DNA of 46,987 bases from a virus: positions 1-46,987 of the IMG/VR virus record IMGVR_UViG_3300035698_004489; one strand, given 5' to 3'. The position numbers were made by a program, and so were the translations under genes. The notes under the pieces were generated by a model, which worked only from the letters and a program-made list of their open reading frames with translations, was not told the origin of the DNA and made no database searches. Numbering within the stretch: position 1 is the first letter of the stretch; the number at the start of each line of letters is the position of its first letter. Positions 8,814-25,900 of the stretch are shown here, in pieces.

Positions 8814-8843
8814 CCGACGAGGCAACCAACGAAGGGAGAAGTA

Positions 8844-9409: not shown

Positions 9410-9411
9410 AG

Positions 9412-9705: not shown

Positions 9706-9736
9706 AACGCCCCCCACTTTAACGGAGGAACGAAAA

Positions 9737-10075: not shown

Positions 10076-10535
10076 CCCAGAAATGGAGCAGCTTAAAGAG
10101 AAATTAAACCAATTAGAGGCGGCTCACAGCGCTATGGCTCACGATGTTGCGGCCTTTATGGGTAAAGCGAGTAGGGCTTTGGATGTTATGGACGAGGTGC
10201 TTACTGAAGAAATAGACGGGTACGCTGAAAAATTCCAAAAGCACTCTCTCGTATTGGTTGTGCGCGGCGTAGTGAGGAATAGAATGGCTCTACATGCACG
10301 CGGCGACCTTGAAGGGTACGCGAAATTAGGCGAACATCTTGACACTATAAAGGCGGCAGCGAAAGAGGACGGATTGCAAAGCCTTTACAACAAGGTCGTA
10401 CGCAAGCTTGAACAGGAAGCCGAGGCGAACAAGCACGCAGAGATGGCGGCCAAAAAGACGCATAAAGAGATTACAGATTTGCCGGACATGAAGGTCGTGT
10501 CTATCGTTCCCCCGGGCAAAGCCGAGAAGCTTTGA
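10059..10535 (+). CDS. Coiled-coil helical protein
   Basis: This 158-residue product is almost wholly helical, with an N-terminal coiled coil (MEQLKEKLNQLEAAH) and a second charged helix at about 115-145. It starts inside the previous gene behind GGAGGAAG. The C-terminus is a short Pro-containing tail. The shape suits an oligomeric scaffold or partner protein in the replication block that follows. It is not recognised. Confidence 0.65.
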   Translation: MKYNLDPEMEQLKEKLNQLEAAHSAMAHDVAAFMGKASRALDVMDEVLTEEIDGYAEKFQKHSLVLVVRGVVRNRMALHARGDLEGYAKLGEHLDTIKAAAKEDGLQSLYNKVVRKLEQEAEANKHAEMAAKKTHKEITDLPDMKVVSIVPPGKAEKL

Positions 10536-10596
10536 ACCCGGAGGTTCGTTTCTCCAAACCAGAAAGGAGGATATAATATAGTTGATTATGACGATC

Positions 10597-10635
10597 GGTC
10601 GGCTTCGGGTTTCGTGCGGATTACCGGAGCCGACC
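10597..10635 (+). promoter_or_regulatory. Stem-loop upstream of the SNF2 helicase gene
   Basis: GGTCGGCTTCGG (10597-10608) pairs with CCGGAGCCGACC (10624-10635) over 12 bases with one G-T, around a 15-base loop. No T run follows, so a processing site or translational element is more likely than a terminator. It lies 32 bases before the GTG start at 10668. Confidence 0.55.
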
Positions 10636-10667
10636 TTATCTAAAAATGAAAGCGAAGGAGAAACAAA

Positions 10668-12626
10668 GTGAAGCTAGTTCATATTAGAACCGGAAGTAGA
10701 AGAACCTCAATAGGAATTGCGGGACGATTGAATTTCTATGAGGGGAAACAGTTGCGCGCTATTGGTGGGTCGCGGAGTAACGCTTCTCCATCACTAAACC
10801 CCCCCTTTAACGAACGGTCGCATTACTTTGTGCCGATGGTGATGGCGCGCCGTCTCTTTAACAAACCGGACAAAAAAGACTTCGGGAAATGGGCGCAACC
10901 AAACTTTATGATGAAATGGGAGTATGCTTTAGGTGAAACCTTTAGCGACCTTCGTATTACCAACGAAGCTTATAGTTTTTACCAGAGGTGGCTCGCGGCG
11001 GAGAAGGAAATAGCTTCGATAAAGCGTAGCGACGAAGCCGTTATCGACAGAGTACTCGCGAGGAACGGTGTTGATGACGCCTTCTTCGCCCGCGAGCCTA
11101 AATTGCATCAGAAAGCGGGCTTGGCTTTTTTCTTAGTTTCGTACGAGCTTGACGCGGGGCATATTATGTTGTTCGACGAGATGCGGACAGGCAAAACGAA
11201 ACAAGCGATTGACATAGCCCGCTTTCTTCTTGTCAATAAGATTATAAATCAGGTCTTGATAGTGTGTCCAAACAGCATCAAGCGTGTCTGGATAAACGAG
11301 TTAATGAAAGACGCGCCCGATAGAGCGTTCCTTAGTACGATAGTACAGGGAACGAAGGCCAAAAGACAAGAAATATGGCGTCAAGGCTTTTTCTTTTACG
11401 TCGTAGGGTATGAATCTTTACGAAATGACATGAAGGAAGCATATGCTTGGCAGAAAGATAAAAAACTTAAATGGCTTTTGATTGTTGACGAAGCTCATAA
11501 GTTGAAGAACGCTGCCGCTTTGCAGACTAAGGTTATTTTAGGTACTGCTAGAAATTATGATGGTCTAAAGCCTGATTATAGTGTATTTTTGACCGGAACT
11601 CCAGTTGCAAATCAACCAATTGACATAGTGACGACATGCAATTTCGTGTGTCCCGGTATACTTGGGGAGAATGTGGAACACTTCAAAACTCGCTTCACCA
11701 TCAGGGGAGGTTATACCGGAGGAGAGGTGACTGGCTATCAGCACTTAGACGAGATACGATGGAGATTAGCTCGCATATCTATGCGCAGAGTGCGCTCTGA
11801 TGTAATGTTTGACGAGTCAGTGATTATGCCGCGATACGGAACCTTAAAGGGCGACCAGTTAAAAGCTTACGAAGATATGCGAGACAAGCTCTATGCCGAG
11901 ATAATTGGACTTAGCGGTGAACCGACCGCTGTTCAAGCTCGTAATCAACTATCAAAGATGATACGACTTCAGCAAATTACCACCGGTTACCTATCTCCAG
12001 ACCCACAGACTATCGGATGGTTCAAGAATTACGGCTGGAAGATACAAGAACTGGATGATTTGCTAAAAGATTATCTGGCTGACTTTGGCAAGATAGTAAT
12101 TTGGTCGAGGTTTGTACCTGTTTTGTTGCATCTTTTAGAAAGGTACAGGAAGCATGGTGCTTTGATTTGTCGAGGTCAGATGGGAGACAAAGCGATAGAA
12201 AATATGTATGCTTTCCAGCGGAAACCAGAACACAAAATTATGCTTGCACAGTATCAAACTAGTGAAGGTAAAGGGTTTCAGCCGGCTACTGCTGCGGTAT
12301 TTCTTGACAAATGGATGTCTCCAGCTCTGAACAAGCAAGCCGCCGATAGAATTACAGGAATTGAAAATCCTGTTACAACTTGTCTAATACCCTTTATAAC
12401 AGAGGGTACTATTGACGAGCGCATTGAGTTTTTGTTGCAAGAGAAAAGGGATTGGTCGGATGCGATAACCGGAGACAAACGAACCAACGAAATCAAGTTG
12501 CCGCATCTTGATAAACATACGCTTCTATATCTGTTGGCTAATCCTGATGAAGCTAAGGAATACGAGTCCAGATTTAAGGAGGAAAAAGATGGACAAAGAA
12601 AATTTGATCTTAGAAAAAGTAAATGA
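10668..12626 (+). CDS. SNF2-family DEAH helicase/translocase
   Basis: The start is GTG behind AAGGAG. This 652-residue protein has motif I DEMRTGKT (170-177), motif Ia CPNSIKRVW, motif II DEAH (274-277) and motif III LTGTP (308-312). The C-terminal helicase lobe shows IVIWSRFVP, SEGKGFQPATAAVFLD and a Q..DRITG arginine-finger motif. SNF2 ATPases translocate on duplex DNA and remodel or clear bound proteins. Phage members often sit in replication modules, as here. About 150 N-terminal residues precede motif I and are not recognised. Confidence 0.9.
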   Translation: MKLVHIRTGSRRTSIGIAGRLNFYEGKQLRAIGGSRSNASPSLNPPFNERSHYFVPMVMARRLFNKPDKKDFGKWAQPNFMMKWEYALGETFSDLRITNEAYSFYQRWLAAEKEIASIKRSDEAVIDRVLARNGVDDAFFAREPKLHQKAGLAFFLVSYELDAGHIMLFDEMRTGKTKQAIDIARFLLVNKIINQVLIVCPNSIKRVWINELMKDAPDRAFLSTIVQGTKAKRQEIWRQGFFFYVVGYESLRNDMKEAYAWQKDKKLKWLLIVDEAHKLKNAAALQTKVILGTARNYDGLKPDYSVFLTGTPVANQPIDIVTTCNFVCPGILGENVEHFKTRFTIRGGYTGGEVTGYQHLDEIRWRLARISMRRVRSDVMFDESVIMPRYGTLKGDQLKAYEDMRDKLYAEIIGLSGEPTAVQARNQLSKMIRLQQITTGYLSPDPQTIGWFKNYGWKIQELDDLLKDYLADFGKIVIWSRFVPVLLHLLERYRKHGALICRGQMGDKAIENMYAFQRKPEHKIMLAQYQTSEGKGFQPATAAVFLDKWMSPALNKQAADRITGIENPVTTCLIPFITEGTIDERIEFLLQEKRDWSDAITGDKRTNEIKLPHLDKHTLLYLLANPDEAKEYESRFKEEKDGQRKFDLRKSK

Positions 12627-12792
12627 GAGTAAGTTTTACCCGTGTCATGACGAGTATAAAGCATTTCTCAAAAAGCTCAGTGTATCGGAGTTAGTTTTGG
12701 TAACTCATGATTTAAGGCGTTCCCCAGAAGATAAAAACTATTTGCTTGCGGCACTAATGGAAATGAAAAGGAGGGCTAAGTGTCAACAATAA
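12589..12792 (+). CDS. Small helical protein overlapping the helicase gene
   Basis: The chosen ATG (12589) has AAGGAGGAAAAAG upstream and lies 38 bases inside the helicase gene. A longer open frame to 12508 has no site and is rejected. The 67-residue product is charged and helical (SVSELVLVTHDLRRSPEDKN) with a basic end. It is probably translated by coupling with the helicase. The function is unknown. Confidence 0.65.
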   Translation: MDKENLILEKVNESKFYPCHDEYKAFLKKLSVSELVLVTHDLRRSPEDKNYLLAALMEMKRRAKCQQ

Positions 12793-13229
12793 TGCTTGAG
12801 CGAAAGAATTGGATATTTCATCCTCATACCAAAGCGGGTAAAGAGTCATTCCAGATAGAGGATAGAAACGAACACGAAAGGTTTATGCGAGAACAATTTG
12901 GGTGGATACCTTTATTTGCAAATACCGAGCTGACCTGTAAAGTGTGCGACGAGAGGATAAAAGGGAATGACGCACTAAGTCATCTTCAGACCAAGAAACA
13001 CTTAGCAAAAAGGGAGGAGTTGCTTCAGAAAGTAAACTGTATTGATCCTGACTTTTGTGACGGGTGTCCTAACTTGATACAGGAAGATAATCCGTGGAGT
13101 GAGATGACGGAGCAGGTGTGTCGTCTTGGTTATGCTTATATGTTGGATGGTGATATTCCGACTATTGCATACTGTATTGACGAGGACTTGGAAAGACCTT
13201 TGTGCTGTACTTCTTATACAAGGAGCTAA
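12780..13229 (+). CDS. C2H2 zinc-finger protein with second Cys cluster
   Basis: The GTG at 12780 sits five bases after AAGGAGG, better placed than the in-frame ATG at 12792. This 149-residue protein has C53-x2-C56, then H68 and H74, in TCKVCDERIKG...HLQTKKH, a U1/matrin-type C2H2 finger. A second part has CIDPDFCDGCP and later CCT, giving four or more possible metal ligands. C2H2 fingers of this type bind RNA or DNA in eukaryotes and occur now and then in phages. The role is probably nucleic-acid binding in the replication block. Confidence 0.7.
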   Translation: MSTIMLERKNWIFHPHTKAGKESFQIEDRNEHERFMREQFGWIPLFANTELTCKVCDERIKGNDALSHLQTKKHLAKREELLQKVNCIDPDFCDGCPNLIQEDNPWSEMTEQVCRLGYAYMLDGDIPTIAYCIDEDLERPLCCTSYTRS

Positions 13230-13232
13230 ACA

Positions 13233-13787
13233 ATGAATCTACAAACAAACCTTGACAACGGGATGCAGCTAGACGACCTTGATGCAATGAAGCCATTGGA
13301 GGCGGCTATACAGGCACAAAAAGAGTATCTATTTCTGAATCAGGAAATGAAAATAGCTGTAGCAAGGCGTAGCTATACCAGGGATAGACTCATTGCCGAA
13401 CTTGAGGCTAGAGGCAGCGATAGAGATGGAAATGAAGATGGCAAGGTACTTTTAATGCACAAGACCTATCCAAAGGTAACAGACCACGAAGCATTAAAAG
13501 AATATATCTACTCACTTGACGAGCCTGTCGGCACTTACTTGAAGGAGGTGTTTATTAAAGGGAATAAAAGTCAGGGTATTGATAACCCGCTAGATATATT
13601 AGTGGAGAAAGCTATGTTGCGCTCGATAGAGGAGGATATAGACATTTCAGAGGCTATGCCTCCTGGACTTACCGTTACCACCGATGCAAGTGTCAGGGTA
13701 ACATTGAAAAAGAACACTGGCGAGACGGCGCCCTTTAAAGATACTAGTAAATATCCAGAATTGGATGCAGCATTGGAGGAGAAATGA
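13233..13787 (+). CDS. Conserved-looking helical protein, unknown
   Basis: This 184-residue protein has AAGGAG before its ATG. It has a long helical N-half (KPLEAAIQAQKEYLFLNQEM), a Ser/Asp/Gly turn region, an acidic middle (SIEEDIDISEAMPPG), and a C-terminal beta segment VTTDASVRVTLKK. It is not recognised. It lies between the zinc-finger gene and small helical genes leading to the SSB-like gene, so a DNA replication or recombination partner is likely. Confidence 0.65.
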   Translation: MNLQTNLDNGMQLDDLDAMKPLEAAIQAQKEYLFLNQEMKIAVARRSYTRDRLIAELEARGSDRDGNEDGKVLLMHKTYPKVTDHEALKEYIYSLDEPVGTYLKEVFIKGNKSQGIDNPLDILVEKAMLRSIEEDIDISEAMPPGLTVTTDASVRVTLKKNTGETAPFKDTSKYPELDAALEEK

Positions 13788-13788
13788 A

Positions 13789-13971
13789 ATGCTAATGGAG
13801 TTGGAAGAGTTTGTAAAACAGATTGATGTTCTAACCGAAGCGGTAAAGGCTTTAATGATAATAGCGGTAGATGATTTGCTTGCTATTGGTATTCGCTCAG
13901 ATGATGAAAATGAAAAAGTTATTGGTTTATCTAGTATTGTTACTAAGATAGCCGAATTGGAGGAGAATTAA
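13789..13971 (+). CDS. Small acidic helical protein
   Basis: ATG at 13789 is chosen because GGAGGAGAAATGA precedes it; a longer frame to 13765 is inside the previous gene without support. The 60-residue product is acidic and helical (LEEFVKQIDVLTEAVKAL, SSIVTKIAELEEN) with hydrophobic heptads. It could pair with the next helical protein, which starts two bases after its stop. Confidence 0.6.
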   Translation: MLMELEEFVKQIDVLTEAVKALMIIAVDDLLAIGIRSDDENEKVIGLSSIVTKIAELEEN

Positions 13972-13972
13972 A

Positions 13973-14269
13973 ATGATTGAAGAAGGAGTCGAAGAAGTAA
14001 AAAAAGCTGGTTTTTGTGATAGAATAGACAAGATGCACGGCACTACACTTACAACCTTAAACTTGAGCATAGCTCGCCTTGAGAATAAAGTTAAATCAAT
14101 AACCATGCGCGATTTAGCTCCAGACAACGAATCGAAACCTGATTCTTCGGCCAGGGAGTCAAAAGGTTACGCAAACACTGAGCTGGGAGAAAAGATTGAA
14201 TCTCTTGACCATGAAACAATGTTCTTGGTTGCTAAATTGGACGCCGTGATAGAGAAGATAGTACTTTAA
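13973..14269 (+). CDS. Small coiled-coil protein
   Basis: The 98-residue product has GGAGGAGAATTAAA before its ATG. It contains LNLSIARLENKVKSI and LGEKIESLDHETMFLVAKLD, two amphipathic helices joined by a polar Ser/Pro/Lys linker. No catalytic residues are apparent. It may form a helical partner with the 60-residue product just upstream. Confidence 0.6.
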   Translation: MIEEGVEEVKKAGFCDRIDKMHGTTLTTLNLSIARLENKVKSITMRDLAPDNESKPDSSARESKGYANTELGEKIESLDHETMFLVAKLDAVIEKIVL

Positions 14270-14298
14270 CCGAACACAATCATGAAGGAGTAAGTAAA

Positions 14299-15144
14299 AT
14301 GGCAAAGAAAGCGTTGACCACTGGTGGCTTTGATGCTCTAGATGCAGAACTTAAAGAAGAGGACGCAGGATTTAATCCTCGACCTGTTACGGTAAAGATT
14401 AACCATCAGTCGGCAGAGTTCGAGATACCGGGCGTACCCGCCGTTGATGATCTTGAGGCCGTGATAATTGCGGCCCAAAAATGTAGGGTGTTCTTCCCAA
14501 AGATGGGAACAGATGCCTTGACTGACGAACTATCAGCCTTTACAGGCAAGCAGCCGTTCTGTAGTTCTCAAGACTATGTTCACGGAAAACTTGCCGATGT
14601 TGATTGGGATAATAAGCCTCCGACTTCAGCGGAAGGACTCAAGGATAAAATTGCCGAGGGTGGACTATTCTGTGGTCAGTGTCCGTTGAATAAATGGGAG
14701 TCAGTTACGCTGCTTGGTAGAACGGGCAGGGGTAAAGCTTGTGATGATAGGAGACGCCTTTGCCTCTGGAAAGAGGGATGGAATGTACCGGTCATACTCG
14801 GTGTATCGCCAAGCTCTATCAGGAGTTGGGATGAGTACTGTTCGTCTCTGGTTATAGGAGGATACAGGTCTTATCACGCAGTAACCAGGTTGACACTCGA
14901 AACAGTGACTGCACCAAACAGGAAATACGCGGTTATCAAATTCAAGTTTAAGAACCCAATAACCGCGGAGATGCAAACAGAACTGATGTCTAAGGTCACA
15001 ATGCGGGGCGAAGAGCAGACCCTCATCAAGGCGTTAGTCGACATCTTTAACAGGCGAGAACTTGTAGAGGACGAAGAATATCCAGAAAACGGCAATGGAA
15101 CTAAGGTTGCTCCTGATGCCGATAATTTGGGAGAAGATTTCTAA
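14299..15144 (+). CDS. Putative single-stranded DNA-binding protein with zinc site
   Basis: This 281-residue protein has C88, a CGQC pair (125-128) and C148 in GRGKACDDRRRLCLW. That pattern, followed by ILGVSPSSIRSWDEY, matches my recollection of a phage family described as SSB-like: CxxC, GKACK.RR, PPSS. The C-terminus is acidic and ends DNLGEDF, like the acidic tips by which SSBs hold partners. It has a GGAG site and precedes the methyltransferase. The last four codons, stop and overlapping ATG are copied 278 bases downstream as a direct repeat. Confidence 0.6.
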   Translation: MAKKALTTGGFDALDAELKEEDAGFNPRPVTVKINHQSAEFEIPGVPAVDDLEAVIIAAQKCRVFFPKMGTDALTDELSAFTGKQPFCSSQDYVHGKLADVDWDNKPPTSAEGLKDKIAEGGLFCGQCPLNKWESVTLLGRTGRGKACDDRRRLCLWKEGWNVPVILGVSPSSIRSWDEYCSSLVIGGYRSYHAVTRLTLETVTAPNRKYAVIKFKFKNPITAEMQTELMSKVTMRGEEQTLIKALVDIFNRRELVEDEEYPENGNGTKVAPDADNLGEDF

Positions 15145-15147
15145 TGA
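15130..15147 (+). repeat. Direct repeat B, upstream copy
   Basis: GGAGAAGATTTCTAATGA covers the end of the SSB-like gene (GEDF, stop) and the overlapping ATG of the 84-residue gene. It is identical to 15408-15425. It also supplies the SD for the inserted gene. Confidence 0.9.
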
Positions 15148-15398
15148 AAGTAAAATTTCGGTGTAAAATGGATGTGACTTTTATAGTTGAAGGCGGTGAA
15201 GATGTGGGTATTATTGAGGCAATGGAGCAATTCCCAGGGCTGGTTAAACAAGACATGAAGGGAGAAAGTGTATTTGATGCGCCCACTCATATAGAAATGA
15301 AACGCGAAGATGATCCAGAGTGGGAAATTGATATTGCCCGTATTCGGAAAATGGAAGAAGAAATGGCAAGTCAGGACGCCTGGACAAACAGGGGTTAA
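15144..15398 (+). CDS. Small acidic protein (inserted cassette B)
   Basis: This 84-residue product starts at an ATG overlapping the SSB-like stop. It opens with a beta strand MKVKFRCKMDVTFIV and continues with acidic helices (IDIARIRKMEEEMASQ). It is not recognised. The gene lies between two identical 18-base copies of the SSB stop/start junction, so the older order was probably SSB-like gene then methyltransferase. Confidence 0.7.
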   Translation: MKVKFRCKMDVTFIVEGGEDVGIIEAMEQFPGLVKQDMKGESVFDAPTHIEMKREDDPEWEIDIARIRKMEEEMASQDAWTNRG

Positions 15399-15407
15399 AG
15401 AAACTTA

Positions 15408-15425
15408 GGAGAAGATTTCTAATGA
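15408..15425 (+). repeat. Direct repeat B, downstream copy
   Basis: Identical to 15130-15147. It lies nine bases after the stop of the 84-residue gene and holds the ribosome site and ATG (15422) of the methyltransferase. The codons for GEDF here are untranslated leftovers. Confidence 0.9.
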
Positions 15426-16564
15426 CAACTAAGCAAAAGGCTTCCGGTCACGTCAACGTCAAAGACGTGGCCGGAGACTATAAAACCGTAAACCGTGTTT
15501 GGCTCGACAAAAATGCTGTAAAGATTCACTGGTTTATTGAAGAAACCAACAGCCATTGGCACAAAACCTATTTTACGAGTCGCGCAATCCATGACCATCA
15601 AGCAAAAGGTAATTGCAGGTTAGCATGGATGGTGCTGGACGAAATGGAAGGGCAGGGCTGGATCAATCCAAAATCAACTATTATACTTGATAATATGTGT
15701 GGGATTGGGAGTTTCCTTATTGTTGCCGCCTTAAAAGGGTATAACGCTATTGGTATTGAGCTTGAAAAGAGGTTCTATGAAGATATGATAGGTACTGAAG
15801 ACTTTATAGATACTAATGACGAAGAAGATCTCTTTATGGGCGTTAGTAGAGGAAAACAGCCGGGAACAATATCGAATTTTCATAGCCTTACATTCAATGT
15901 TCCTTCTGTGGGGAGTATTCAGGTGATAAATGGCGACGCCCGCTTTGCTGATGAAATTATACGCAAAGTTGGAATTGAGTTCGACGATTACCAGACAGAT
16001 GACCTTGGCGTAGTCTGCTCTCCGCCATACGGTAACAGGTTGTGGGATGCTGGGTTGTCTCGGTTAGAAAACGAAACCGGACGCGCTCGGTATTCCAACG
16101 ACGAAGACAACATCGGCACTTGCCGTATAGCCGTTGTTAATTCACCTCCGTACAGTCGCTCAACAGAACATAGCGACAGTCAGATGGATGGCTTCAAAGA
16201 AACTCCAGTATCAGGTCATCGAGGTTGGCTATACAGTGACAGAGCCAACATAGCCGTGTTAAAGTTGGGCGAATACGACAAGGAGATGTTGAAGGTCTAT
16301 CAAGCCCTTTACAGAACCTTGTCTGTTGGCTCTCCTGTCGCGCTAATAACTCGTAATTTCATCCAGAAGGGAAAGATAGTAGCCTTGGATGAGCTAACAG
16401 TGAAGTTGATGGAACAAGCGGGATTCACATATCAATTTACACGTCGGGCAAACCTGTCTGACATTTCGTTTTTCAAGCGAATCAATTGGGATACAGCGCA
16501 CAAATCAAAAGGACTTCCCTTAATTACTTGGGAAGAAGTAACATTCTATAGAAAGGAAAGATAA
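15422..16564 (+). CDS. DNA methyltransferase (SPPY type, N4-cytosine or N6-adenine)
   Basis: This 380-residue protein has motif I LDNMCGIGSF (residues 89-98), which binds S-adenosylmethionine, with the acidic GIELE strand after it. The catalytic motif IV is CSPPYG (199-204). A second NSPPYS (240-245) lies 40 residues later. SPPY-type motifs are typical of amino-methyltransferases acting on cytosine N4 or adenine N6. No restriction partner is nearby, so it probably protects phage DNA or marks it. It is translated from a duplicated junction and precedes a possible RHH gene. Confidence 0.85.
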   Translation: MTTKQKASGHVNVKDVAGDYKTVNRVWLDKNAVKIHWFIEETNSHWHKTYFTSRAIHDHQAKGNCRLAWMVLDEMEGQGWINPKSTIILDNMCGIGSFLIVAALKGYNAIGIELEKRFYEDMIGTEDFIDTNDEEDLFMGVSRGKQPGTISNFHSLTFNVPSVGSIQVINGDARFADEIIRKVGIEFDDYQTDDLGVVCSPPYGNRLWDAGLSRLENETGRARYSNDEDNIGTCRIAVVNSPPYSRSTEHSDSQMDGFKETPVSGHRGWLYSDRANIAVLKLGEYDKEMLKVYQALYRTLSVGSPVALITRNFIQKGKIVALDELTVKLMEQAGFTYQFTRRANLSDISFFKRINWDTAHKSKGLPLITWEEVTFYRKER

Positions 16565-16566
16565 CG

Positions 16567-16860
16567 ATGGGTAAAGGCGAAGAACGAGGAATTTATGTAA
16601 ATCTTCCAGTAATTCTGGATAAGAAGTTGGCTCTACTCGCAAGGGTACTTCCAGTAAGACCGAACGGTAGGGGCTGGGCTAAAAAAGATATTATTGCGCT
16701 TGCCTGTGAAAAGTTTGTGGATAAGTGCGATGAATACTTTGACGGTATATCAGACCTTGACGAAATGATCGAACAGGCGAAAGGAATCAATATAGAAGAT
16801 GTGCAAGACAGCGACTCGGATATGCCTAAAGAAAATGCAGGACTTAGAGAGTTTGAATGA
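16567..16860 (+). CDS. Possible ribbon-helix-helix regulator
   Basis: In this 97-residue protein, GIYVNLPVILDKKLALLARVL followed by GWAKKDIIALACEKFVDK resembles a ribbon-helix-helix fold: one strand and two helices. The remainder is an acidic tail. AAAGGAAAG lies before the ATG. If RHH, it would be a DNA-binding repressor that could act on the dyads in the control region. This assignment is weak. Confidence 0.5.
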   Translation: MGKGEERGIYVNLPVILDKKLALLARVLPVRPNGRGWAKKDIIALACEKFVDKCDEYFDGISDLDEMIEQAKGINIEDVQDSDSDMPKENAGLREFE

Positions 16861-17005
16861 TGAGTTCTGTATAGAGTGCTGGCTAGGGAGCAAACAGTAT
16901 TTTGATCGCAAAGAATGCTTCGAGGCAAACTGTGTAACCGAGGAGGAATTTGATGGAATCCCAATTCAACCCAAGCACGGACACCGCCCAGAGTCGATTA
17001 GCTGA
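16835..17005 (+). CDS. Possible small Cys-rich protein
   Basis: This is a 56-residue frame with CIECW, RKECFEANC, a plausible metal-binding set. It overlaps the end of the 16567 gene and the start of the 16953 gene. The start is uncertain (16799 or 16835), and neither has a strong SD. It is kept because the Cys pattern resembles the other small early proteins. It could be chance. Confidence 0.35.
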   Translation: MQDLESLNDEFCIECWLGSKQYFDRKECFEANCVTEEEFDGIPIQPKHGHRPESIS

Positions 17006-17168
17006 TAATAAAGAAGTCGATACACTTAAACATCTAGTCAGATTACATCCACGAGAAGCAATGGAATGCCTCTCGTTTAATCAAATGCTCAAGTATATAC
17101 TTGAGCATAAAAATATACCGCTAGCTCTTGTACGAGTAAAGGTGGCATTGCTCAAAGAAGGGGTGTAA
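16953..17168 (+). CDS. Small helical protein before the primase-MCM gene
   Basis: ATG at 16953 is six bases after AGGAGG; the TTG at 16950 is less likely. The 71-residue product has a polar N-terminus and helices LKHLVRLHPREAMECL and MLKYILEHKN, then a basic end. It stops two bases before the TTG of the primase-MCM gene, whose translation it probably couples to. It is not recognised. Confidence 0.65.
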   Translation: MESQFNPSTDTAQSRLADNKEVDTLKHLVRLHPREAMECLSFNQMLKYILEHKNIPLALVRVKVALLKEGV

Positions 17169-17170
17169 AA

Positions 17171-20100
17171 TTGTGGGAAGAATACAAGTATTGCGAAGTG
17201 TCTTTGGTTACACCGAAAAACAAAAACACAAAATGGAGGAGGATAGAAAGAGATGGCGTCCAAGAATGGATTGAAAAGAATGAAGGTGCGCTGGCGTACT
17301 TTTCGACAATGCAATCCTTTTGCAATCCAGTTAAAGTGGAGGATGAATTACATTGGTCTCCGTTCTTTATTGATTTAGACGCTAACATTAGCCCAGAAGA
17401 TACACCTGACATTATCAAACAGAAGCTCTATGAAGTTCTTGGTGATGCAAAAAAGGTTATAGACTACTTTGCAACAGGATTTGACGTTATGCCTCGAGTT
17501 TGGTGGAGTGGCGGCAAGGGCTTTCACATCACCGTTCCCGGAGAATTATACGATGCCAAACCGGGAAGTAAACTCACGTATCACTGGAAACACCTTGCCG
17601 GGCGAATTGTTAAATTACTGGAACTCGAGACTCTCGATTGGAGCGTATACAGCGTTCCCCGAATGTGGAGAATCGCCAATACAATACACAAATGGGGTTT
17701 GTTCAAGATACCCCTGGACTTTTCCGATCTTAGACAAGGAATCGACCATATCAAGTCGCTGGCTGTCAATACACGAGTACTTAACGATACCGATGAAGTT
17801 GAAACTCCCGAGCCTTTAGCATCGCTAACAGCCATTTATCGGTCAACGGTAAGTCAATATGAAGAGCGGTTAAAGGTTATCGAGCATGACGTGCTGGCTG
17901 CTCCAGTTTTCGGAAACGATCATCCACCATGTGTCAAATTTCTTTTGGAGTATGGCCTTGGAACTATTGGAACTAAAAATAGAGCAGACATGGCATTGTC
18001 TAACTACTGCAAGGCGTCTGGACTCAGCATTAAAGATGCAGAACACTTTATGTCAGATTGGGCGAAGTCCATTCCGCTTGCTTTAACTAATACCGTTGAA
18101 CCATTAGCGCGCGCCGTACAGAGTATTAGCGTTCTAAAGGTTGTGTATTCTGACCGTAATTATCGCTTTAGCTGTGGCAGCATGAGGGCTTGCGAGTTAG
18201 ATGTAGACTGCAAACTGTGTAATGTAGAAAGAGAAAGCGAGATACAGGAAATACGTCTTGCTGAATTTGCAGATGCAAAGAATCTTGGAAGAAGAGTTTG
18301 TATTGAGGCTGACGTAATTGGAAAGAATAATTCCGAGATGATTGTTCCATCCGAGATAAGAGGATGGTGCAAGCTTGGACAGGGTGATTCCATGTGCGAG
18401 AGATGTACTCTTGGTAGATACTTTAACGCCGAAACTGGTCAGGTAGAGCGCACGATAGTTTTTGACGGTAAGGAGCGACTGACTCTACAGTTAATTGACA
18501 TAACCAAAACTGCTATAAAACACAGAATTAAACAAATCTTTGGAGTAGAGCCGAGATGTTACAACTTTCAGTATGATGTAAAGTGGGGTAATGCCGCTAT
18601 CATCTATCTTGCTACCAGAATGTCCAGCGAGTTCAAGGTAGAAGATCAAATTACAAGGAGCAGGGCATTATATTTAGACCATGCAATAGAGCTTAACAAA
18701 GGGTACAAACTCTATGGCTTTGTATGGAATCATCCACACTCAAACAACGCGATGCTTGTATTAGATTCTGCCGAGCCATTGCAGTCGTCACTAGACACGC
18801 TGGCTTTATCGGAGGAACAACTCGCTAAACTCAAGATATTCCAGCCGGCGGCAGGGCAAAGTCCGCGTCAAAAGATTAGAGACATTCATGAGGTATTCCA
18901 ATCGAACTTTATTAGAATACATGGACGTGACGAATTGCTGCTTGCTGCTGATTTAGTTTGGCATAGTGCAAGGAGAATAAATTTCCAGAAGGCTAAGGAG
19001 ATACGGGGTTGGCTTGATATTCTAATTATCGGAGATACCAGACAGGGTAAATCCGATACCGTAGAGAAATTGATGGCGTACTACAATCTTGGAGTCATGG
19101 CCGCAGGTGAAACCGCATCAAGAACCGGGCTGCTCTATACCATCCATATGACCTCTGGAGAGGAGGCTTGGATAGCGTTTGGTTTAATGTGTAGAGCTAA
19201 TGGCTATCTTGTTGTTATTGACGAAATACATGATATGCCATCTCAAGACTTCAAAGAGTTTACACTGGTGCGCAGTAAAGGTATAGTGGATGTTAAGCGA
19301 GCGGCATACGGTGCGGCTAGAGCAGAGACAAGATTGATATGTATTGCTAACGCAAAGCCCGGAAAGACTCTAGCATCGTACGGTTATCCAGTACAAGCCA
19401 TACCGGACGTACCGTGCTTTAGGTCGGCGGAAGATGTATCAAGATTTGATTACTGTGTAGGTGTAAGGGCTGGCGACGTAGACGACGACGAGATCAATAA
19501 AGATGTTTACGAAATGGAAGAGCTTGACAATCCATACGGGGCGGAAGATTGCAGAAATCTTATACTGTGGATATGGACGAGAACACCGGATCAAGTTATA
19601 ATCCAACGCAATACCGAAAGGGTTATACTTGAGCTGGCAAAGAAATTGAGTAGTGAATACATCTCCGATATACCCTTGATAGAGGCCGCCGATGTAAGGC
19701 ATAAGCTGGCGCGCCTTGCCACTGCTGTAGCTGGTAGAGTGTTTAGCACCAAGGATAATGAAACTTTGATAGTTACTCCGGTACACGCGCAGACCGCATA
19801 CCAAATAATCGACGAACTTTATAGGTCGAAAGGTCTTGATTATTATGGATGGAGTGAAGATCGGGCGAGGATTTATTATTCACCAGATCAACTTGCACAA
19901 TTGCAGCGCGATTTCAAAGACGCTTTTATGCTATCGTGGAATGTCATCGCTAACTGGTTGTTAGACGTGCCTATGTTCAACAAAACGTTAGTACGTTCAT
20001 CGTGCGGGCTAAACAGTGGCGAAACGAATACGTTAATGTCATTCCTAATCACTAATAGATTTATCCAAACCGATCAAAGGCAGTACATTAAAACTCCACA

Positions 20101-20209
20101 AGGCAGAACGTTTCTGAGGGATCTCATGAAGGGGCGAAAAGTAGTTCCTCCACCGCAACTTAACTTTGATGCTGTCGAGGAGAAAAATGAAGAGGAGGAT
20201 GAGTTCTGA
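17171..20209 (+). CDS. Primase-MCM helicase fusion (archaeo-eukaryotic type replication protein)
   Basis: The protein is 1012 residues from a TTG behind AAGGGG. Residues about 60-180 form an archaeo-eukaryotic primase core: metal-binding D68-L-D70, SGGKGFHI (113-120) and RIANTIH (167-173). Residues about 250-350 resemble the PriL C-terminal cluster domain: PPCV (C254), then SCGSMRAC...CKLC (C335, C341, C347, C350). Next is an MCM-N-like region with C400, C409 and C412. The AAA+ module has Walker A GDTRQGKS (621-628), Walker B VVIDEIHD (D684, E685), sensor-1 Asn727 and SRFD (757-760), the MCM arginine finger. A winged-helix-like end follows. It should prime and unwind at the origin. Primase-MCM fusions are known, for example the Bacillus cereus prophage MCM. 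Confidence 0.9.
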   Translation: MWEEYKYCEVSLVTPKNKNTKWRRIERDGVQEWIEKNEGALAYFSTMQSFCNPVKVEDELHWSPFFIDLDANISPEDTPDIIKQKLYEVLGDAKKVIDYFATGFDVMPRVWWSGGKGFHITVPGELYDAKPGSKLTYHWKHLAGRIVKLLELETLDWSVYSVPRMWRIANTIHKWGLFKIPLDFSDLRQGIDHIKSLAVNTRVLNDTDEVETPEPLASLTAIYRSTVSQYEERLKVIEHDVLAAPVFGNDHPPCVKFLLEYGLGTIGTKNRADMALSNYCKASGLSIKDAEHFMSDWAKSIPLALTNTVEPLARAVQSISVLKVVYSDRNYRFSCGSMRACELDVDCKLCNVERESEIQEIRLAEFADAKNLGRRVCIEADVIGKNNSEMIVPSEIRGWCKLGQGDSMCERCTLGRYFNAETGQVERTIVFDGKERLTLQLIDITKTAIKHRIKQIFGVEPRCYNFQYDVKWGNAAIIYLATRMSSEFKVEDQITRSRALYLDHAIELNKGYKLYGFVWNHPHSNNAMLVLDSAEPLQSSLDTLALSEEQLAKLKIFQPAAGQSPRQKIRDIHEVFQSNFIRIHGRDELLLAADLVWHSARRINFQKAKEIRGWLDILIIGDTRQGKSDTVEKLMAYYNLGVMAAGETASRTGLLYTIHMTSGEEAWIAFGLMCRANGYLVVIDEIHDMPSQDFKEFTLVRSKGIVDVKRAAYGAARAETRLICIANAKPGKTLASYGYPVQAIPDVPCFRSAEDVSRFDYCVGVRAGDVDDDEINKDVYEMEELDNPYGAEDCRNLILWIWTRTPDQVIIQRNTERVILELAKKLSSEYISDIPLIEAADVRHKLARLATAVAGRVFSTKDNETLIVTPVHAQTAYQIIDELYRSKGLDYYGWSEDRARIYYSPDQLAQLQRDFKDAFMLSWNVIANWLLDVPMFNKTLVRSSCGLNSGETNTLMSFLITNRFIQTDQRQYIKTPQGRTFLRDLMKGRKVVPPPQLNFDAVEEKNEEEDEF

Positions 20210-20496
20210 TGCACGCAAAAGACAAACTGGCAGTAATAATTAACCAAGTAACGGAATTACTTGATAGCGAAGAGGCCGCAGCGTCTAAAATACCGGTAAC
20301 CGAATGGGAGGAACGATACAAAAAACTAAAAGGAATGAGGGCTTTCTTCGGTGCGCCATGGAACGAGCTAGAGACGATGATTAGAGGTACAGCGTATCCA
20401 GAAGAATGGATATGGGAATCACGAAAGGACGAGGCGTTCAAGAAGTATTATATGCTTCGTCACAAGGCAGACGAAATGGAGGTATTGGTGAAATGA
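20209..20496 (+). CDS. Small helical protein after primase-MCM
   Basis: The ATG overlaps the primase-MCM stop (TGATG), so translation is coupled. The 95-residue product is helical and charged, with KLAVIINQVTELLDSEEAA and a Trp-containing EEWIWES. It ends DEMEVLVK. The DNA for that end, plus the next ATG, is the unit copied at 20852. It may be a partner of the helicase. It is not recognised. Confidence 0.65.
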   Translation: MHAKDKLAVIINQVTELLDSEEAAASKIPVTEWEERYKKLKGMRAFFGAPWNELETMIRGTAYPEEWIWESRKDEAFKKYYMLRHKADEMEVLVK

Positions 20497-20497
20497 A
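20473..20497 (+). repeat. Direct repeat C, upstream copy
   Basis: These 25 bases cover the last codons and stop of the 95-residue gene, the SD GGAGG and the ATGA of the next gene. They are identical to 20852-20876, 379 bases downstream. Confidence 0.9.
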
Positions 20498-20849
20498 TAT
20501 ACTTGATCGTATCAAAAAACGTTACTTGCCTTACAGGACTGTTGAAGCGGAGGTTACGTCTCCGGTAACCGTTACGGGAATATGTTACAGCGGCTTTAAT
20601 GATAATTTAGAAGTATCGAAGATTATGCCTATATGTATGCATAAAAATGACACACTTAACATCGAGTGGAACCTTGAACTCGAATACAAAAAAGGTAAAA
20701 AAGGTAAAAAAGTATTCATTAGCTGCGATGGAGAACTTTTAGCGGAGTTATCCAGAGGCGATAAGTATGCTAGTAAAAAAACTCTCCACATTGAGTATGC
20801 CGGCACGCCCGATGGAGGTGCTTCATACTTTCGACCAAGGAAGATATAA
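20493..20849 (+). CDS. Small beta-rich protein (inserted cassette C)
   Basis: The start at 20493 overlaps the previous stop (ATGA) and uses the GGAGG inside repeat C. A longer frame to 20406 lies in the previous gene and is rejected. The 118-residue product has a basic start (MNILDRIKKRYL), several likely strands (VEAEVTSPVTVTGI, KVFISCDGELLAEL) and a Lys-rich loop KKGKKGKK. It is not recognised. Identical 25-base copies on both sides mark it as an insertion between the 95-residue gene and the membrane protein. Confidence 0.7.
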   Translation: MNILDRIKKRYLPYRTVEAEVTSPVTVTGICYSGFNDNLEVSKIMPICMHKNDTLNIEWNLELEYKKGKKGKKVFISCDGELLAELSRGDKYASKKTLHIEYAGTPDGGASYFRPRKI

Positions 20850-20851
20850 AT

Positions 20852-20876
20852 GAAATGGAGGTATTGGTGAAATGAA
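20852..20876 (+). repeat. Direct repeat C, downstream copy
   Basis: Identical to 20473-20497. It starts two bases after the stop of the 118-residue gene and gives the ribosome site and ATG (20872) of the small membrane protein. Confidence 0.9.
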
Positions 20877-21042
20877 AGACTACCACAAAAAACTTTACAA
20901 ACTGGCAGAAAAAACAACTAATAGGATGAGTAATAATCTTGGCCCGAATTGGGGAATAAACGAATGGGTGTGGTTTATAATTGCAGTGATAATATTTTTT
21001 GGAGCTATCGCCGCACTTATTAGCTTAGGGTGGCACGACTGA
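20872..21042 (+). CDS. Small single-span membrane protein
   Basis: ATG at 20872 has GGAGG ten bases upstream; the frame ends at TGA 21040-21042. The 56-residue product has a basic N-terminus (KDYHKKLYKLAEK) and one membrane segment, VWFIIAVIIFFGAIAALISL, near residues 33-53. It could be a holin-like or membrane-anchoring protein. With a single span, no lysis role can be claimed. Confidence 0.65.
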   Translation: MKDYHKKLYKLAEKTTNRMSNNLGPNWGINEWVWFIIAVIIFFGAIAALISLGWHD

Positions 21043-21063
21043 TCGCTAAAAAGGAGATGATAA

Positions 21064-21414
21064 ATGTCAGACAGAAAAAGAATAAACCAACACGCAAGGC
21101 GCATGGAAGATAAAGCAGAGGACAGGTTGAAAGAGTTAGGCTTTACGCTGGTAGAAGATACTGGTAGGCGTACCCAGAATCTTGGTGATAAAATTATGTA
21201 CCACAAAGATACCGGTCTGCTACTTATGATAGACCATAAGAGTACACAGAACAAAGAATCGTTTAGTATGAAGAAAAAAGCATTGCGTAAAATAAGGGAG
21301 GAGGGAGAAAGCTATGGCGATGCAGTTCTGGCAGCGTTGACGATAACCTTTAAAGGTGATACCGATGTATATATAGCCTTTAACCTTAAAGACTTATTGG
21401 GGGTGATGTATTGA
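21064..21414 (+). CDS. Putative PD-(D/E)xK nuclease, resolvase-like
   Basis: In this 116-residue protein, E19 in RRMEDKAEDRLKELGF, then GRRTQNLGDKIMY, and LLLMIDHKST with D57-x-K59 fit the PD-(D/E)xK order of archaeal-type Holliday junction resolvases and related phage nucleases. The size is right for that family. It would cut branched DNA before packaging or during recombination. A GGAGATGA site precedes the ATG. The catalytic set is inferred from spacing only. Confidence 0.6.
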   Translation: MSDRKRINQHARRMEDKAEDRLKELGFTLVEDTGRRTQNLGDKIMYHKDTGLLLMIDHKSTQNKESFSMKKKALRKIREEGESYGDAVLAALTITFKGDTDVYIAFNLKDLLGVMY

Positions 21415-21869
21415 TGTTAGTTAGTTCCGCTGCTAGAAAGTACGCGCATGGCGATATGTCCTTAGCGGAAGATATACAACAAGAAATAAATATATCTATG
21501 TTACAAGGACACAACTTCTTCGAGGCTGTTCGTGACGGCATAGACTTTATGCGCCGATATACAAGATGTGCTACGAAACAAGCGAACAAGATTGTACTTT
21601 GGCCTGACATGGATTTGTATATTGATCTAAATCAATCAACCGAAAATATGATACTTACCAATATAATGGTGGAGCGCATTCTTGACTGTTGGCCTAAGGA
21701 AAGTATCGAACACGAGATACTGGTAAAGCGTTTTTTCGAAGGGTTTACCTATGAAGAAATAGGAGAACAATATGGCAAGAGTAGGTGGTGGGCGAGTACG
21801 AGAATTTATAGAATGAAAAAACAAATAGAGGAGAGATACAATGTCAAAAATTCAAGACCCTCTGTATGA
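21414..21869 (+). CDS. Sigma-70-family-like transcription factor
   Basis: The ATG at 21414 overlaps the previous stop (TGATG). Of 151 residues, the N-terminal half looks like sigma region 2 in outline (LAEDIQQEINISML, EAVRDGIDFMRRYTRCATKQ). The C-terminal half is a clear region-4 helix-turn-helix: ILVKRFFEGFTYEEIGEQYG followed by KSRWWASTRIYRMKKQIEE. Being near the end of the early block, it is a good candidate for switching on middle or late genes. Recognition sequence is unknown; the late promoter also has a full host consensus. Confidence 0.65.
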   Translation: MLVSSAARKYAHGDMSLAEDIQQEINISMLQGHNFFEAVRDGIDFMRRYTRCATKQANKIVLWPDMDLYIDLNQSTENMILTNIMVERILDCWPKESIEHEILVKRFFEGFTYEEIGEQYGKSRWWASTRIYRMKKQIEERYNVKNSRPSV

Positions 21870-22929
21870 GAAACAATGGAATCTCAAACTAATGAACGTT
21901 GAGGAAGCGTGGAAATACTCAACCGGTGAAGGCGTTGTAGTTGGTGTCCTTGATTCTGGAGTCGATGCTACACATCAAGACTTGGGATGGGGTGAGTATA
22001 TAGAGCTATCCGCATCCGATACTCGTAATATTATAAGAGATAAAACTAGTCATGTTTATGCTCAAATAGCCAAAGAAATACACCCGAAGATTTTGCCGGG
22101 TTGGGATTTTGTGCATAATGACGATTTCACCTTTGATCTCTACAGGCATGGCACATATATGGCTGGCATTATTGCCGCCGACAGAGACAACATAGGTATC
22201 GTTGGCGTCGCCCCTGATTGCAAAATTAGGCCGTATGTGGTACTGGATAGCGGCGGTTATGGCAATCAGTTTAATCTAGCGGCAGCCATCAACATAGCCG
22301 TTGAAGATGGATGCAACATAATCAATATGAGTCTGGCATGGTGGAATAAGGATAATGCTGTACAAAAAGCAGTGACCGCCGCTGTAAAAGCTGGCGTTAT
22401 ACTCATCGCCGCTACCGGCAATAACGACATGGAAAGAATTATGTACCCCGCCGCTTATGCTGGGGTGATAGCCGTCGGTGCTTGTAACTGTAGAGGTACC
22501 CGATGGGTGCATAGCGAAGAAAGAGGAAGTAACTACGGAGATAAACTACTTTGTATTTGTCCCGGAGACGGACAGCCTACGACCCAGAGGCTTCGTAGCA
22601 GACATACAAACGTAGACGCTACATCCGCTGCCACTGCCAACCTGAGTGGAGTGGCCGCGCTAATAAAGGGAGCTTATGGCTTTTTAGATACGGAAAAATT
22701 CGAGGAGTTGATACGGGAAGGATCGCATTTAACTTGTCAAAGTAATTTTGTTGGGTGTGGAGTTCCCGATGCTGGAGAGATGGTTCGGGCTGTAATGGCG
22801 GAACCGGCGCAACCAACTCCGACGAAGCTGGGCGGTATTGATCTTGAAATGTTTGTATCCGAGATTGAGTATGTGGAAGAGGGGCTAAAGAACATAAGGG
22901 AGTATGTTGAAGGGTTTATAAAGGGGTAG
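21841..22929 (+). CDS. Subtilisin-like serine protease (S8)
   Basis: This 362-residue protein has a catalytic Asp38 in GVLDSGVDATHQDL, His103 in RHGTYMAGIIA, oxyanion Asn194 in AATGNND and Ser262 in DATSAATANLSG. The complete triad suggests an active enzyme. No signal peptide or transmembrane segment is present, and there is no clear propeptide. A helical C-terminal tail of about 50 residues follows the fold. It overlaps the sigma-like gene by 29 bases and ends the plus-strand block. Possible targets are virion proteins, host regulators or the cell envelope. A head-maturation role is less likely, as the scaffold is a separate P22-like gene. Confidence 0.85.
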   Translation: MSKIQDPLYEKQWNLKLMNVEEAWKYSTGEGVVVGVLDSGVDATHQDLGWGEYIELSASDTRNIIRDKTSHVYAQIAKEIHPKILPGWDFVHNDDFTFDLYRHGTYMAGIIAADRDNIGIVGVAPDCKIRPYVVLDSGGYGNQFNLAAAINIAVEDGCNIINMSLAWWNKDNAVQKAVTAAVKAGVILIAATGNNDMERIMYPAAYAGVIAVGACNCRGTRWVHSEERGSNYGDKLLCICPGDGQPTTQRLRSRHTNVDATSAATANLSGVAALIKGAYGFLDTEKFEELIREGSHLTCQSNFVGCGVPDAGEMVRAVMAEPAQPTPTKLGGIDLEMFVSEIEYVEEGLKNIREYVEGFIKG

Positions 22930-22931
22930 CG

Positions 22932-22948
22932 TTACCACTTCTTGGTAA
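22932..22948. terminator. Weak hairpin at the convergent gene ends
   Basis: TTACCA (22932-22937) and TGGTAA (22943-22948) enclose five bases at the meeting point of the two blocks. Six base pairs and no T run make it a weak terminator candidate in either direction. Confidence 0.25.
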
Positions 22949-25900
22949 ACCCATCCTTGAAGCCCTTGACCGGAGAGGAGCCGAATCCTTTGAAGGTTGT
23001 GGGCTTTTTCTTTTTCTTTCTTTCTACTGGAAATATAAAGCTAATAGGAGATACGTCCTCCTCTACAACTCTTGCCCCCTGCTTGTAGAGGGCGTAACCA
23101 GGGATGTGAGCGGACATGGAGTTTACAAACTGTTTTATACCTTGGTCAAGTAAAAGATTATCTTCAGTAATAGAACCCCAACTCATCATGCCAATAGCTT
23201 CTGGTAGTTTATCTATTACTCCTACCGCTGCACTCGCTCCACCCATAAGCGCGCCTACCGTTGGCGATACAAAACCGGGAACCGGCCTTCCGAAAAGATA
23301 TGAAGTGGGCGCAGAAGCAGTGGCGGCGAGATGTGTAAGATCGAGACCCATTTTCTTTCCTGCAATATACAACGCAGCGGCTTTAACCCCTAAAGCCAAT
23401 ACTCCAAGACGCTCATAAGTGCGCAAAGGATGTCCAAAAACGTCCTCGCCCTTCAAGGCCATACGTCCAAGGGTGGGTATATGCCTTCCAAGAAAGTATT
23501 GCGGCCATGAAGTATATTTAGCAGCAAGTTTTCCAGCTTCAGAAGTAAGTATTGGAGGCATAGCAACTGAATCATACATAAATTGCGAAGTTGGTACCCC
23601 TATAAAGTCGTTCGCCCTTCGCATGTCCTGAAACATTCCTACATCAAGAGCATCAGCTAATACATCAGCAAATTTATCACCAGTTAAACTTCTGCGCTCT
23701 ATACCTAGCGTTCGTTTAGCAAAATCTGCAAGATCATCCATCAACCTCGGCGAACCCCTCTCGAAAATCTGATGCCATCCAGCAAGATAGGAGTGAGCAA
23801 CATTAAGTTGGTCGGTAAGCATTATTCCGCCGTAGCTGGTAAATCTGTCGGCTTCTTTGAGTTTTCCCCACTTTGCAGCATTCCTTATATCTACACCAGC
23901 AATCGGAACTCCGCGACCAGCCATCATCTTAGAAGTCTTTAATAGTTTGTGACCACCCTTGAGCGGCATCTCTTTCCATGCCCATGCAGAAGATTTTAAT
24001 CCGTAAAGTTGGTTATCCAGTTGAGTCTGAAATAAGTTTCTCGCACTTGGTCTTAACTGCTTCAACAATCCTCTATCAATGGCGTTCCTTGCTCTTCTCG
24101 AAAAGTTAACAAACGGCTGATCGGAAGCCTCCCACTTAGGTATAATCTTTTCCATCTGTTTCGATAGTGGATTAAATATACTATTCAAAGTAACATCTAT
24201 ATCTGACTGTATTCCCAAAGCAGATGAAGCCAATTTGTTAAACTCTTTTTGTATTCTACCGCGAAGCTCTATCGGCAAAGCCTTTATGGACGCCTCCATT
24301 TCAAGGAGACCGGGCTGTACTATGAAATGCTTGGCGGACATCAAATCCGCCGTTGACTCCACCTCCATGAAGGCGTACTTTATATCATCGGGTTCTAAAT
24401 CTTTACGAGCAATAACAATACCGCCGCTGGTTTTGGTGGGGGCTTTTCGTTCTCTTCTAAGTTTCTCTATTCTAGATTCTCTAAATCCCGTATCTGGCAA
24501 TTCGTGTTTTCTTGCAAACGCCTTTCTGCCTTCATCAAATTCCACAATCTTTGTTCTAGTGTGTCTAAAATAAGGTTCTTCAACAGGAGCTATGCCTTGT
24601 TTAATCAGTTCTGGATCACGAGTTATTTTACCCTGCTCTAATCCCATGTCTCGCCACTTGTTTACAAATAGCTCTGCGTTCTCTTGCGCTATATCATCCA
24701 TCCATGCGAGTTCTTCTGGAGACACAGCAGATACAAGCTCAACCGGCCATTCGTCAATTGGATTTCCGTCTGATACTCTAGCCATAGCCTCGTCAATAGC
24801 ATCATCCCACTTTCTACCAAACCTATTCTTGAATCTTCCTCGCAAATCAATAAGCCATTTGTTCTTACTATTGTGCAGAATCTTTGCCGTGTATACATTA
24901 TCATAAAACTTAGCAAGATCTCTCTCCATGCCGAACTGTGACCATACATGAACTGGTGGAGATATAGTTTTTCTATAAGCCCTAGCAATCCACCCATCAC
25001 GCACCTTTATGGGTACTTGACCTAGCACTCCTACCTGCCTGGAAAGGTCGTCTAGCTCATCAACGTTTAGTTGAAATATTTTAGTCTTTGGGGTTATCTT
25101 GCCGGGAGTTATTTCCGGTAACGTTCTAGTCTCTATCATCTTCTTCATATCCTTCGGCCTCATCCAGCCAGAAGGATTGTCGCGAGTGATTAAAGAATCA
25201 TTTAGATACTTTTGCCTGACAACACCCTTAAAGACATCATCTAAACTTGTTGCACCTTTGTAAATGTCATCAAAGGTTTCAGCCCCAGTCATTGCCATTG
25301 CAGCCCTCCAAGCTTCATCGGCATTCGGGTCTTGCAAAATTTTAACCAACCTTGTAGGCATATCATCACCGCCAGATTTTATCATCGCCTCGCTGGTAGA
25401 AATTAAAATATCATCCACAAGGTCTCCTGGATTTGCCTTTCGTATAAAGGGCTTTATTCTGGCCGGAAGCTTTAGCTTTGTTGCGCCCCGCACTCCTTTA
25501 GCAACTACATTATCTATACCTGCTCCAACGGCGACCTCAAGTGATATAGCAACGCTGAGTTCGGCGATAGCTTCATTCACACCTAAAACCTTACCTAACG
25601 ATGGATGTCTTTCAATGAACTTATCGTAGTCATATAAAGATTGCGGGAACACAGCACCGAGTGAGTTTCTTACAACCTTCGTTCCTCCACCGGCCCACGC
25701 TTCTTCTACTGCGAGTTCGTAGTCTCTTGCTGATGGTTTAGGATGGTTACCTTTTGGATCAGTTATTTGCCTTCTTTTCCAATCCGATATTACTCCGGCT
25801 ACAGCACCCACAAGCTGACGCGGACGAGCCTCTATATCTAATACATTGAGAAGCGTAGTTCCTGTAGCTATATTAGTAGCAGCGTCTCTTAATTCTATTG

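Follow-up and report, generated by a model that had tools for sequence, protein, structure and literature searches.

The gene analyzed here is located on a virus record of 46,987 bases (IMG/VR IMGVR_UViG_3300035698_004489), which was analyzed at its full length and is called the window in the following. The gene occupies positions 17171-20209 on the plus strand and is a single intact open reading frame (ORF) of 1012 codons with a TTG start. A Shine-Dalgarno-like GAAGGGG lies 7 bases 5' of the TTG (about 17157-17163, plus strand); it was found by sequence inspection and is a plausible ribosome site. The encoded protein of 1012 amino acids contains a PriS-like domain of the archaeo-eukaryotic primase (AEP) superfamily at residues ~1-217, a four-cysteine domain that resembles the PriL C-terminal domain (CTD) at residues ~250-352, and an MCM helicase, probably including a winged helix, at residues ~353-990. 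PHROG 18685, a family of unknown function, covers residues 3-893 (E 1.2e-110). An initial annotation, made from the sequence alone, had proposed one fused protein of 1012 residues, and this was borne out, as the frame is open throughout and all motifs that it had named were located. It had also spoken of a phage with bacterial promoters, which is not supported for the region of this gene: 20 promoter-like sites were counted, versus 21.0 expected in shuffles of positions 13000-23500.

The N-terminal catalytic domain comprises residues ~1-215 (17171-17815, plus strand). The predicted primase motifs DxD, SGGKG and H are in place, i.e., FIDLD at residues 66-70 contains D68 and D70, SGGKGFH at 113-119 contains H119, and LD at 155-156 contains D156. 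All three motifs of the AEP superfamily as defined in a passage of PMC5862659 (I, DhD; II, sxH; III, hD/E) are satisfied, and the catalytic columns are conserved across the family alignment. An AlphaFold2 model of residues 1-356, computed with 33 family rows, had a mean predicted local distance difference test (pLDDT) score of 90.7. Comparison of residues 1-217 with the PDB by VIA-align placed human Pri1 (PriS) in the top row (Z 14.4, 3.5 Å over 203 residues), and all 50 matches listed were AEP-superfamily structures or primase complexes, with Z values of 11.3-14.4. Of the 33 members in the alignment, 31 were matched by Pfam DNA_primase_S (best E 1.4e-17); the Pfam scan of the window protein itself did not list this family. 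As judged from the motifs and from the predicted fold, the N-terminus is an AEP catalytic domain of the PriS type. A predicted linker helix at residues 217-241 (17819-17893, plus strand; DSSP on the AlphaFold2 model) connects it with the cysteine domain.

The four-cysteine domain (residues ~250-352; 17918-18226, plus strand) was characterized by profile, hhalign and structure comparisons. A search of the PDB (hmmsearch) with a 33-row profile of the domain gave 15 matches at E <=10, the best 12 of which were PriL (top E 3.7e-4). A profile of the full head, i.e., AEP plus cysteine domain, recovered both PriS and PriL, each in its own half. An hhalign comparison was made with 17 archaeal PriL CTDs, which were those of 21 ORFs that passed a cysteine pattern, from loci of genomes with PriL (58/60 and 3/3). 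It resulted in a probability of 95.2%, and the cysteines of PPC and of SC were aligned between the two families. After removal of gappy columns the hhalign score was 47.2, versus a mean of 11.5 (standard deviation 2.3, maximum 21.8) for 300 column shuffles. Even with every cysteine masked in both families the probability was still 75%; with the MCM-fused members alone it was 86%, and with the window protein alone 56.5%.

The structural comparison pointed in the same direction with less weight. The domain was also modelled alone, because the VIA-align comparison of the 1-356 model had barely probed it, and this isolated model reached a pLDDT of 89.4. VIA-align placed PriX first (Z 7.9, 3.3 Å, 86 residues), followed by Xenopus PriL (Z 6.5, 2.6 Å, 76 residues) and yeast PriL (Z 5.4), with saposins just below at 5.3; Foldseek gave no significant match. 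Pfam PF04104 matched 27 of the 33 aligned members at E <=10 (best 2.3e-5); it had no match in the window genome and was not listed for the full-length protein either. Pfam PriCT_1 matched 19 of the 33 members (best 1.8e-12), in agreement with the kinship of PriCT and the PriL Fe-S domain, which are considered related in a passage of PMC5862659. Homology of the domain to the PriL-CTD/PriCT/PriX group is thus confirmed at the level of sequence profiles, and the predicted structure supports it more weakly. The similarity to PriL-CTD that had been proposed was therefore recovered, with sequence profiles finding PriL and structure prediction giving the weaker support. The label "PriL-CTD-like", and not PriL, is used because the window protein is below the curated cut-off of PF04104. 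Only the C-terminal part of PriL appears to be present: hhalign against full-length archaeal PriL covered residues 140-344 of the window protein, but the AEP fold takes up everything before residue 217, so that no separate stretch is left for the N-terminal docking domain of PriL.

The cysteines that are conserved family-wide are C254, C335, C347 and C350, in the order PPC ... SC ... C ... C that is also found in archaeal PriL. Cys254 belongs to the motif PPCV at residues 252-255 (codon at 17930-17932), and the remaining three lie within SCGSMRACELDVDCKLC at residues 334-350 (Cys335 at 18173-18175, and Cys347 with Cys350 of CKLC at 18209-18220, all on the plus strand; assigned by alignment and census). 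The initial annotation had recognized a PriL-like block from cysteine spacing, and the homology to PriL stood (the top 12 PDB profile matches, and 47.2 versus at most 21.8 in the shuffles). C341 of "MRAC", which it had quoted, was rejected as the third ligand, as this residue is common only to the window and locus L014 in the 33-row alignment. This alignment was built from 61 ORFs with a four-cysteine pattern, which formed 33 clusters at <85% identity; the partial ORF L060 was dropped and the window was added. The invariance of the cysteines within it is by construction, because the rows were chosen by that pattern.

A profile-based census, which does not rely on the cysteine pattern, covered 108 loci, with 80 of 124 relatives kept in one of the scans behind it. 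It counts duplicate or near-identical contigs (e.g., L013/L029) and partial ORFs. There were 58 proteins with AEP and MCM, and all four cysteine columns were filled in 57 of them; in the 58th (L014) the fourth cysteine lies beside the column (TLCVGC) when inspected by eye, so that 58/58 keep four cysteines. Among the AEP proteins without MCM, at least 15 of 50 had all four; the true number may be higher, as a missing letter can also result from a local alignment that stopped short. The difference suggests that the PriL-like domain matters when priming is coupled to unwinding, and the gap may partly reflect the alignment ends. The view that the PriL-like block is unique to the window phage was rejected, as all 58 MCM-fused AEP proteins have the same architecture with the four cysteines. 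Nor is it an addition to the primase-MCM fusion, as had been read into the sequence; it is already part of the known phBC6A51/BcMCM-type family (passage in PMC3973330). Related AEP heads were also observed joined to other ATPases (D5_N/DUF5906, VapE-like) or to C-terminal parts without a Pfam match (L069, L073, L084, L090 and L103).

The C-terminal half of the protein is an MCM helicase. The AAA+ motor comprises residues ~560-800 (18848-19570; all features of this half are on the plus strand) and was recognized by Pfam MCM at residues 572-732 (41.5 bits versus a cut-off of 23.3, E 1.1e-10) and by hhalign. The Pfam match alone is no proof of MCM, because PF00493 also responded in 14 of 14 control genomes. 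The hhalign comparison of the C-terminal half with archaeal MCM gave 98.9% (score 147, 432 columns) and reached the winged helix, versus 4.8% (score 30) for MoxR/Mg-chelatase-like AAA+ proteins, which were therefore rejected; the AAA+ domain groups with MCM, as had been predicted. All phmmer matches in the PDB at E <0.7 were MCM2-9 or archaeal MCM. The Walker A motif GDTRQGKS is found at residues 621-628 (19031-19054), Walker B VVIDEI at 681-686 (19211-19228), the sensor-1 region IANAKPGK with N727 at 725-732, and the arginine finger motif SRFD at 757-760 (19439-19450). All 64 aligned rows, whether AEP- or DnaG-headed, have K627, E685, N727 and R758, and 60 of them have D684; this count leaves out API480 and L098, which have long branches, and three MCM-only rows. 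The claim of a full MCM core ending in SRFD was thus correct for the core, which is intact, and incorrect for its end, as SRFD is the arginine finger inside the AAA+ module. A probable C-terminal winged helix lies at residues 937-989 (19979-20137), indicated by alignment to the archaeal MCM C-terminus and by a match to Pfam HTH_45 that is under the Pfam cut-off (E 0.0047). The N-terminal region of the MCM half, residues ~353-500 (18227-18670), contains four further cysteines, C400, C409, C412 and C463 (18368-18559), which occur without exception in the 27 AEP-headed and the 37 DnaG-headed rows and probably form a second metal site.

Several phages match the window protein over the MCM half only. 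Six such proteins were scanned with Pfam (BSP7, Krampus, Youna2, API480, Manatee Spring phage and Wollypog), and each of the six combines MCM with a DnaG zinc ribbon, with a TOPRIM domain or with both; for Krampus, API480 and the Manatee phage the MCM match is under the Pfam cut-off. When viral sequences were scanned with the MCM half, 387 relatives were obtained; among the 80 kept, 79 were classed as DnaG-headed and one as AEP-headed, a share that is not a population estimate, because the query alignment began with a DnaG-type row. Three of the 79 (L198, L220 and L224) are really MCM-only, as the primase profile touched the linker only. They have stand-alone MCM ORFs of ~610-622 amino acids (L198:3886-5718, L220:4962-6803, L224:4986-6854), and no primase was detected beside them by two head profiles in the surrounding DNA examined. 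DnaG-headed MCM proteins are found at L003, L004, L005, L006, L008 and L009 and within the series L153-L232.

In a tree of the MCM half the phage MCMs formed one group apart from archaeal MCM (100/100). The window and L014 paired at 100/100, and the DnaG-headed L175 grouped with the AEP-headed L051 at 96/95. On the starred branches of this tree the AEP label must change at least twice. A single AEP clade was rejected by the approximately unbiased (AU) test with p 0.029 (31-row subset of 76), which is modest evidence, and some forks between AEP groups are weakly supported. The trees omit L044, the BboS125 row, which duplicates L013, and L195, which lies on the contig of L018. The phylogeny thus indicates that one MCM module has carried either AEP or DnaG-type heads, with at least two exchanges. 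No description of an AEP/DnaG exchange on one MCM chassis was found in the literature searched, and key papers lay outside that search.

The design itself is already in print. According to a passage in a paper of 2014 (PMC3973330), a PriS-PriL fusion had been reported earlier for the Bacillus provirus phBC6A51, and the architecture as such was therefore rejected as new. BcMCM is described in part of PMC4538821 as an AEP/MCM protein of an integrated B. cereus prophage, for which helicase and later primase and DNA polymerase activities were reported, with 3'-5' helicase polarity and dNTP-preferring priming; a PriCT-1 domain is marked in BcMCM in an excerpt of PMC5141293. The phBC6A51 protein is taken to be BcMCM, because both are tied to McGeoch and Bell 2005 and Samuels 2009 in citing papers, and from these reports a PriS-PriL-MCM protein follows. 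The remark in the initial annotation that primase-MCM fusions were known, e.g., in Bacillus cereus, agrees with these passages of PMC4538821 and PMC3973330. MCM helicases had also been described in bacteriophages and found on bacterial plasmids, as stated in an excerpt of PMC5862659. Like phBC6A51/BcMCM, the window protein has an AEP head fused to MCM, a PriS-PriL fusion and a PriCT-1-related domain, and it shares with the 58 MCM-fused AEP proteins of the census the order AEP head, PriL-like four-cysteine domain and MCM in one chain. It is a new, divergent member of the known fusion and adds a deep, divergent lineage. Its first 356 residues are ~27-32% identical to Bacillus-type prophage proteins (such as L024), and its MCM half is on a separate deep branch with L014, apart from these prophage proteins.

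The closest relative found was the viral contig L014 (IMG/VR 3300028176_000006), with 43.5% identity over 986 aligned positions. L014:185-12956 and the window have six ORFs in common, including window:14299-15144 (45% identity, function unknown), and the two are therefore probably related phages. The next example is Bacillus phage vB_BboS-125, whose "DNA primase small subunit" covers 97% of the query with the same domain order and all four cysteines at 28.4% identity to the window protein. It has polA just downstream, unlike the window, where none was recognised. A viral-contig scan with P0001 alone gave no match, and with A2 it found vB_BboS-125 only. The DnaG-type fusions (Bacillus BSP7, Weizmannia Youna2, Microbacterium Krampus, Arthrobacter Wollypog, Paenibacillus API480) are homologous to the window protein over most of the MCM half and share the invariant cysteine quartet and the ATPase residues (37 rows, API480 not counted), but their head, a zinc ribbon and/or TOPRIM of the DnaG superfamily, is unrelated to AEP. 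PolpTN2 of the Thermococcus nautili plasmid pTN2 also combines a PriS and a PriL part in a single chain that has the four PriL cysteines and, unlike the window protein, no MCM helicase domain in its description in a passage of PMC3973330. Thermus phage P23-45 gp40 and Bacillus phage KLEB27-3 gp067 (338 and 337 amino acids) have an AEP plus CTD unit with all four cysteines like the window protein, but they are without MCM, and a separate replicative helicase is annotated nearby.

The gene is situated in a tailed-phage genome, as it is surrounded by an SNF2-type helicase (10668-12626), a possible DNA methyltransferase (15422-16564), a Holliday-junction-resolvase-like ORF (21064-21414) and a terminase large subunit (1869-3386, strand opposite to the primase-MCM gene). 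Further downstream, an ORF at 21411-21869 matches RNA polymerase sigma factor families (PHROG 1740, E 1.4e-9) and runs into the beginning of a protease-like ORF (21841-22929). Scans of the larger ORFs of the early region (4770-22929) and some of the short ones recognised no DNA polymerase family, a negative that is qualified by the fact that a linear virus record such as this one is often a fragment.

Taken together, three homologous modules with intact catalytic residues, as read from sequence and models, are present in one chain, and the gene very probably encodes a phage helicase-primase, i.e., a one-chain primosome of the phBC6A51/BcMCM type. Six copies would assemble through their MCM parts, and the resulting ring would unwind the phage fork in the manner of BcMCM. 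Its N-terminal side would carry the AEP heads, which would prime single-stranded template as soon as it emerges. In cellular primases, a role in primer initiation is ascribed to PriL-CTD and PriX. By analogy, the PriL-like domain, probably built around a 4Fe-4S cluster, would hold the template and the initiating nucleotide by the AEP active site and thus aid the start of the primer. The primase head would be an exchangeable module, with related phages carrying a DnaG-type head on the same MCM chassis.

Several observations weigh against this interpretation. The VIA-align Z values of 5-8 for the cysteine domain are in the range that the tool calls unsafe for helical folds, and Foldseek gave no significant match to the isolated domain (best E 0.59, a saposin). 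Residues 1-356 of the window protein scored 12.8 bits against PF04104, below its cut-off of 22.4. For residues ~353-500, hhalign gave no alignment with the N-domain of archaeal MCM. The 4Fe-4S cluster is putative, and no metal was observed. The sequences compared were relatives from viral contigs and a Bacillus velezensis plasmid record, with BcMCM itself compared through published descriptions, and a review passage mentions an early study that found no primase activity in BcMCM.

Among the alternatives, it is possible, yet rather doubtful, that the four-cysteine domain is a zinc-binding domain of the PriCT type, with helices homologous to PriL-CTD and a different metal. The PriCT_1 matches in more than half of the members fit this idea, the last two cysteines are close together (Cx2-4C), with neither the longer spacing nor the HPLxYY-like tail of archaeal PriL, and the second cysteine quartet, in the MCM N-domain, may also bind zinc. 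A 4Fe-4S domain is favored by the order and invariance of the four cysteines, which match PriL, by the alignment of the first two cysteines of both families in hhalign, and by PolpTN2, whose PriL-fused protein is light brown when intact according to a passage in PMC3973330, consistent with Fe-S. It is unlikely that the AEP domain is mainly a primer-extending DNA polymerase (PrimPol) and the protein a whole phage replicase, not only a helicase-primase. The lack of a recognised polymerase family among the larger window ORFs scanned would fit, as would the DNA polymerase activity and dNTP preference reported for BcMCM in part of PMC4538821, but vB_BboS-125, with the same fusion, has polA just downstream, the window may be a fragment, and a host polymerase could serve. 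It is very improbable that the cysteine domain is a helical zinc domain of other descent whose likeness to PriL-CTD is fortuitous: the Foldseek result and the 56.5% of the window protein alone would allow it, but the 12 top PDB profile matches are all PriL, the score exceeds the maximum of all 300 shuffles, and the signal persists with all cysteines masked.

The helicase-primase with a PriL-CTD-like, probably Fe-S, domain is thus the preferred reading, and its implications extend beyond the window. Tentatively, and with slightly less than even confidence, a modular phage primosome can be envisaged, in which the MCM motor has an invariant metal site of its own and has had two unrelated primase superfamilies exchanged at least two times, one an AEP head whose PriL-like domain is a functional 4Fe-4S domain, the other a DnaG-type head of zinc ribbon and TOPRIM, and the phage may even replicate without a DNA polymerase of its own. 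If true, the AEP version would be a complete archaeal-style primosome in one chain, which could be compared with the DnaG-headed one on the same motor. The role of the PriL Fe-S domain in primer initiation is debated, and one paper (PMC5700102) bears the title "Primer synthesis by a eukaryotic-like archaeal primase is independent of its Fe-S cluster". The combination of PriS-like, PriL-CTD-like and MCM parts in one chain is a compact system for the analysis of this role, and AEP or DnaG-type heads on a shared MCM chassis represent a natural experiment in swapping unrelated primases.

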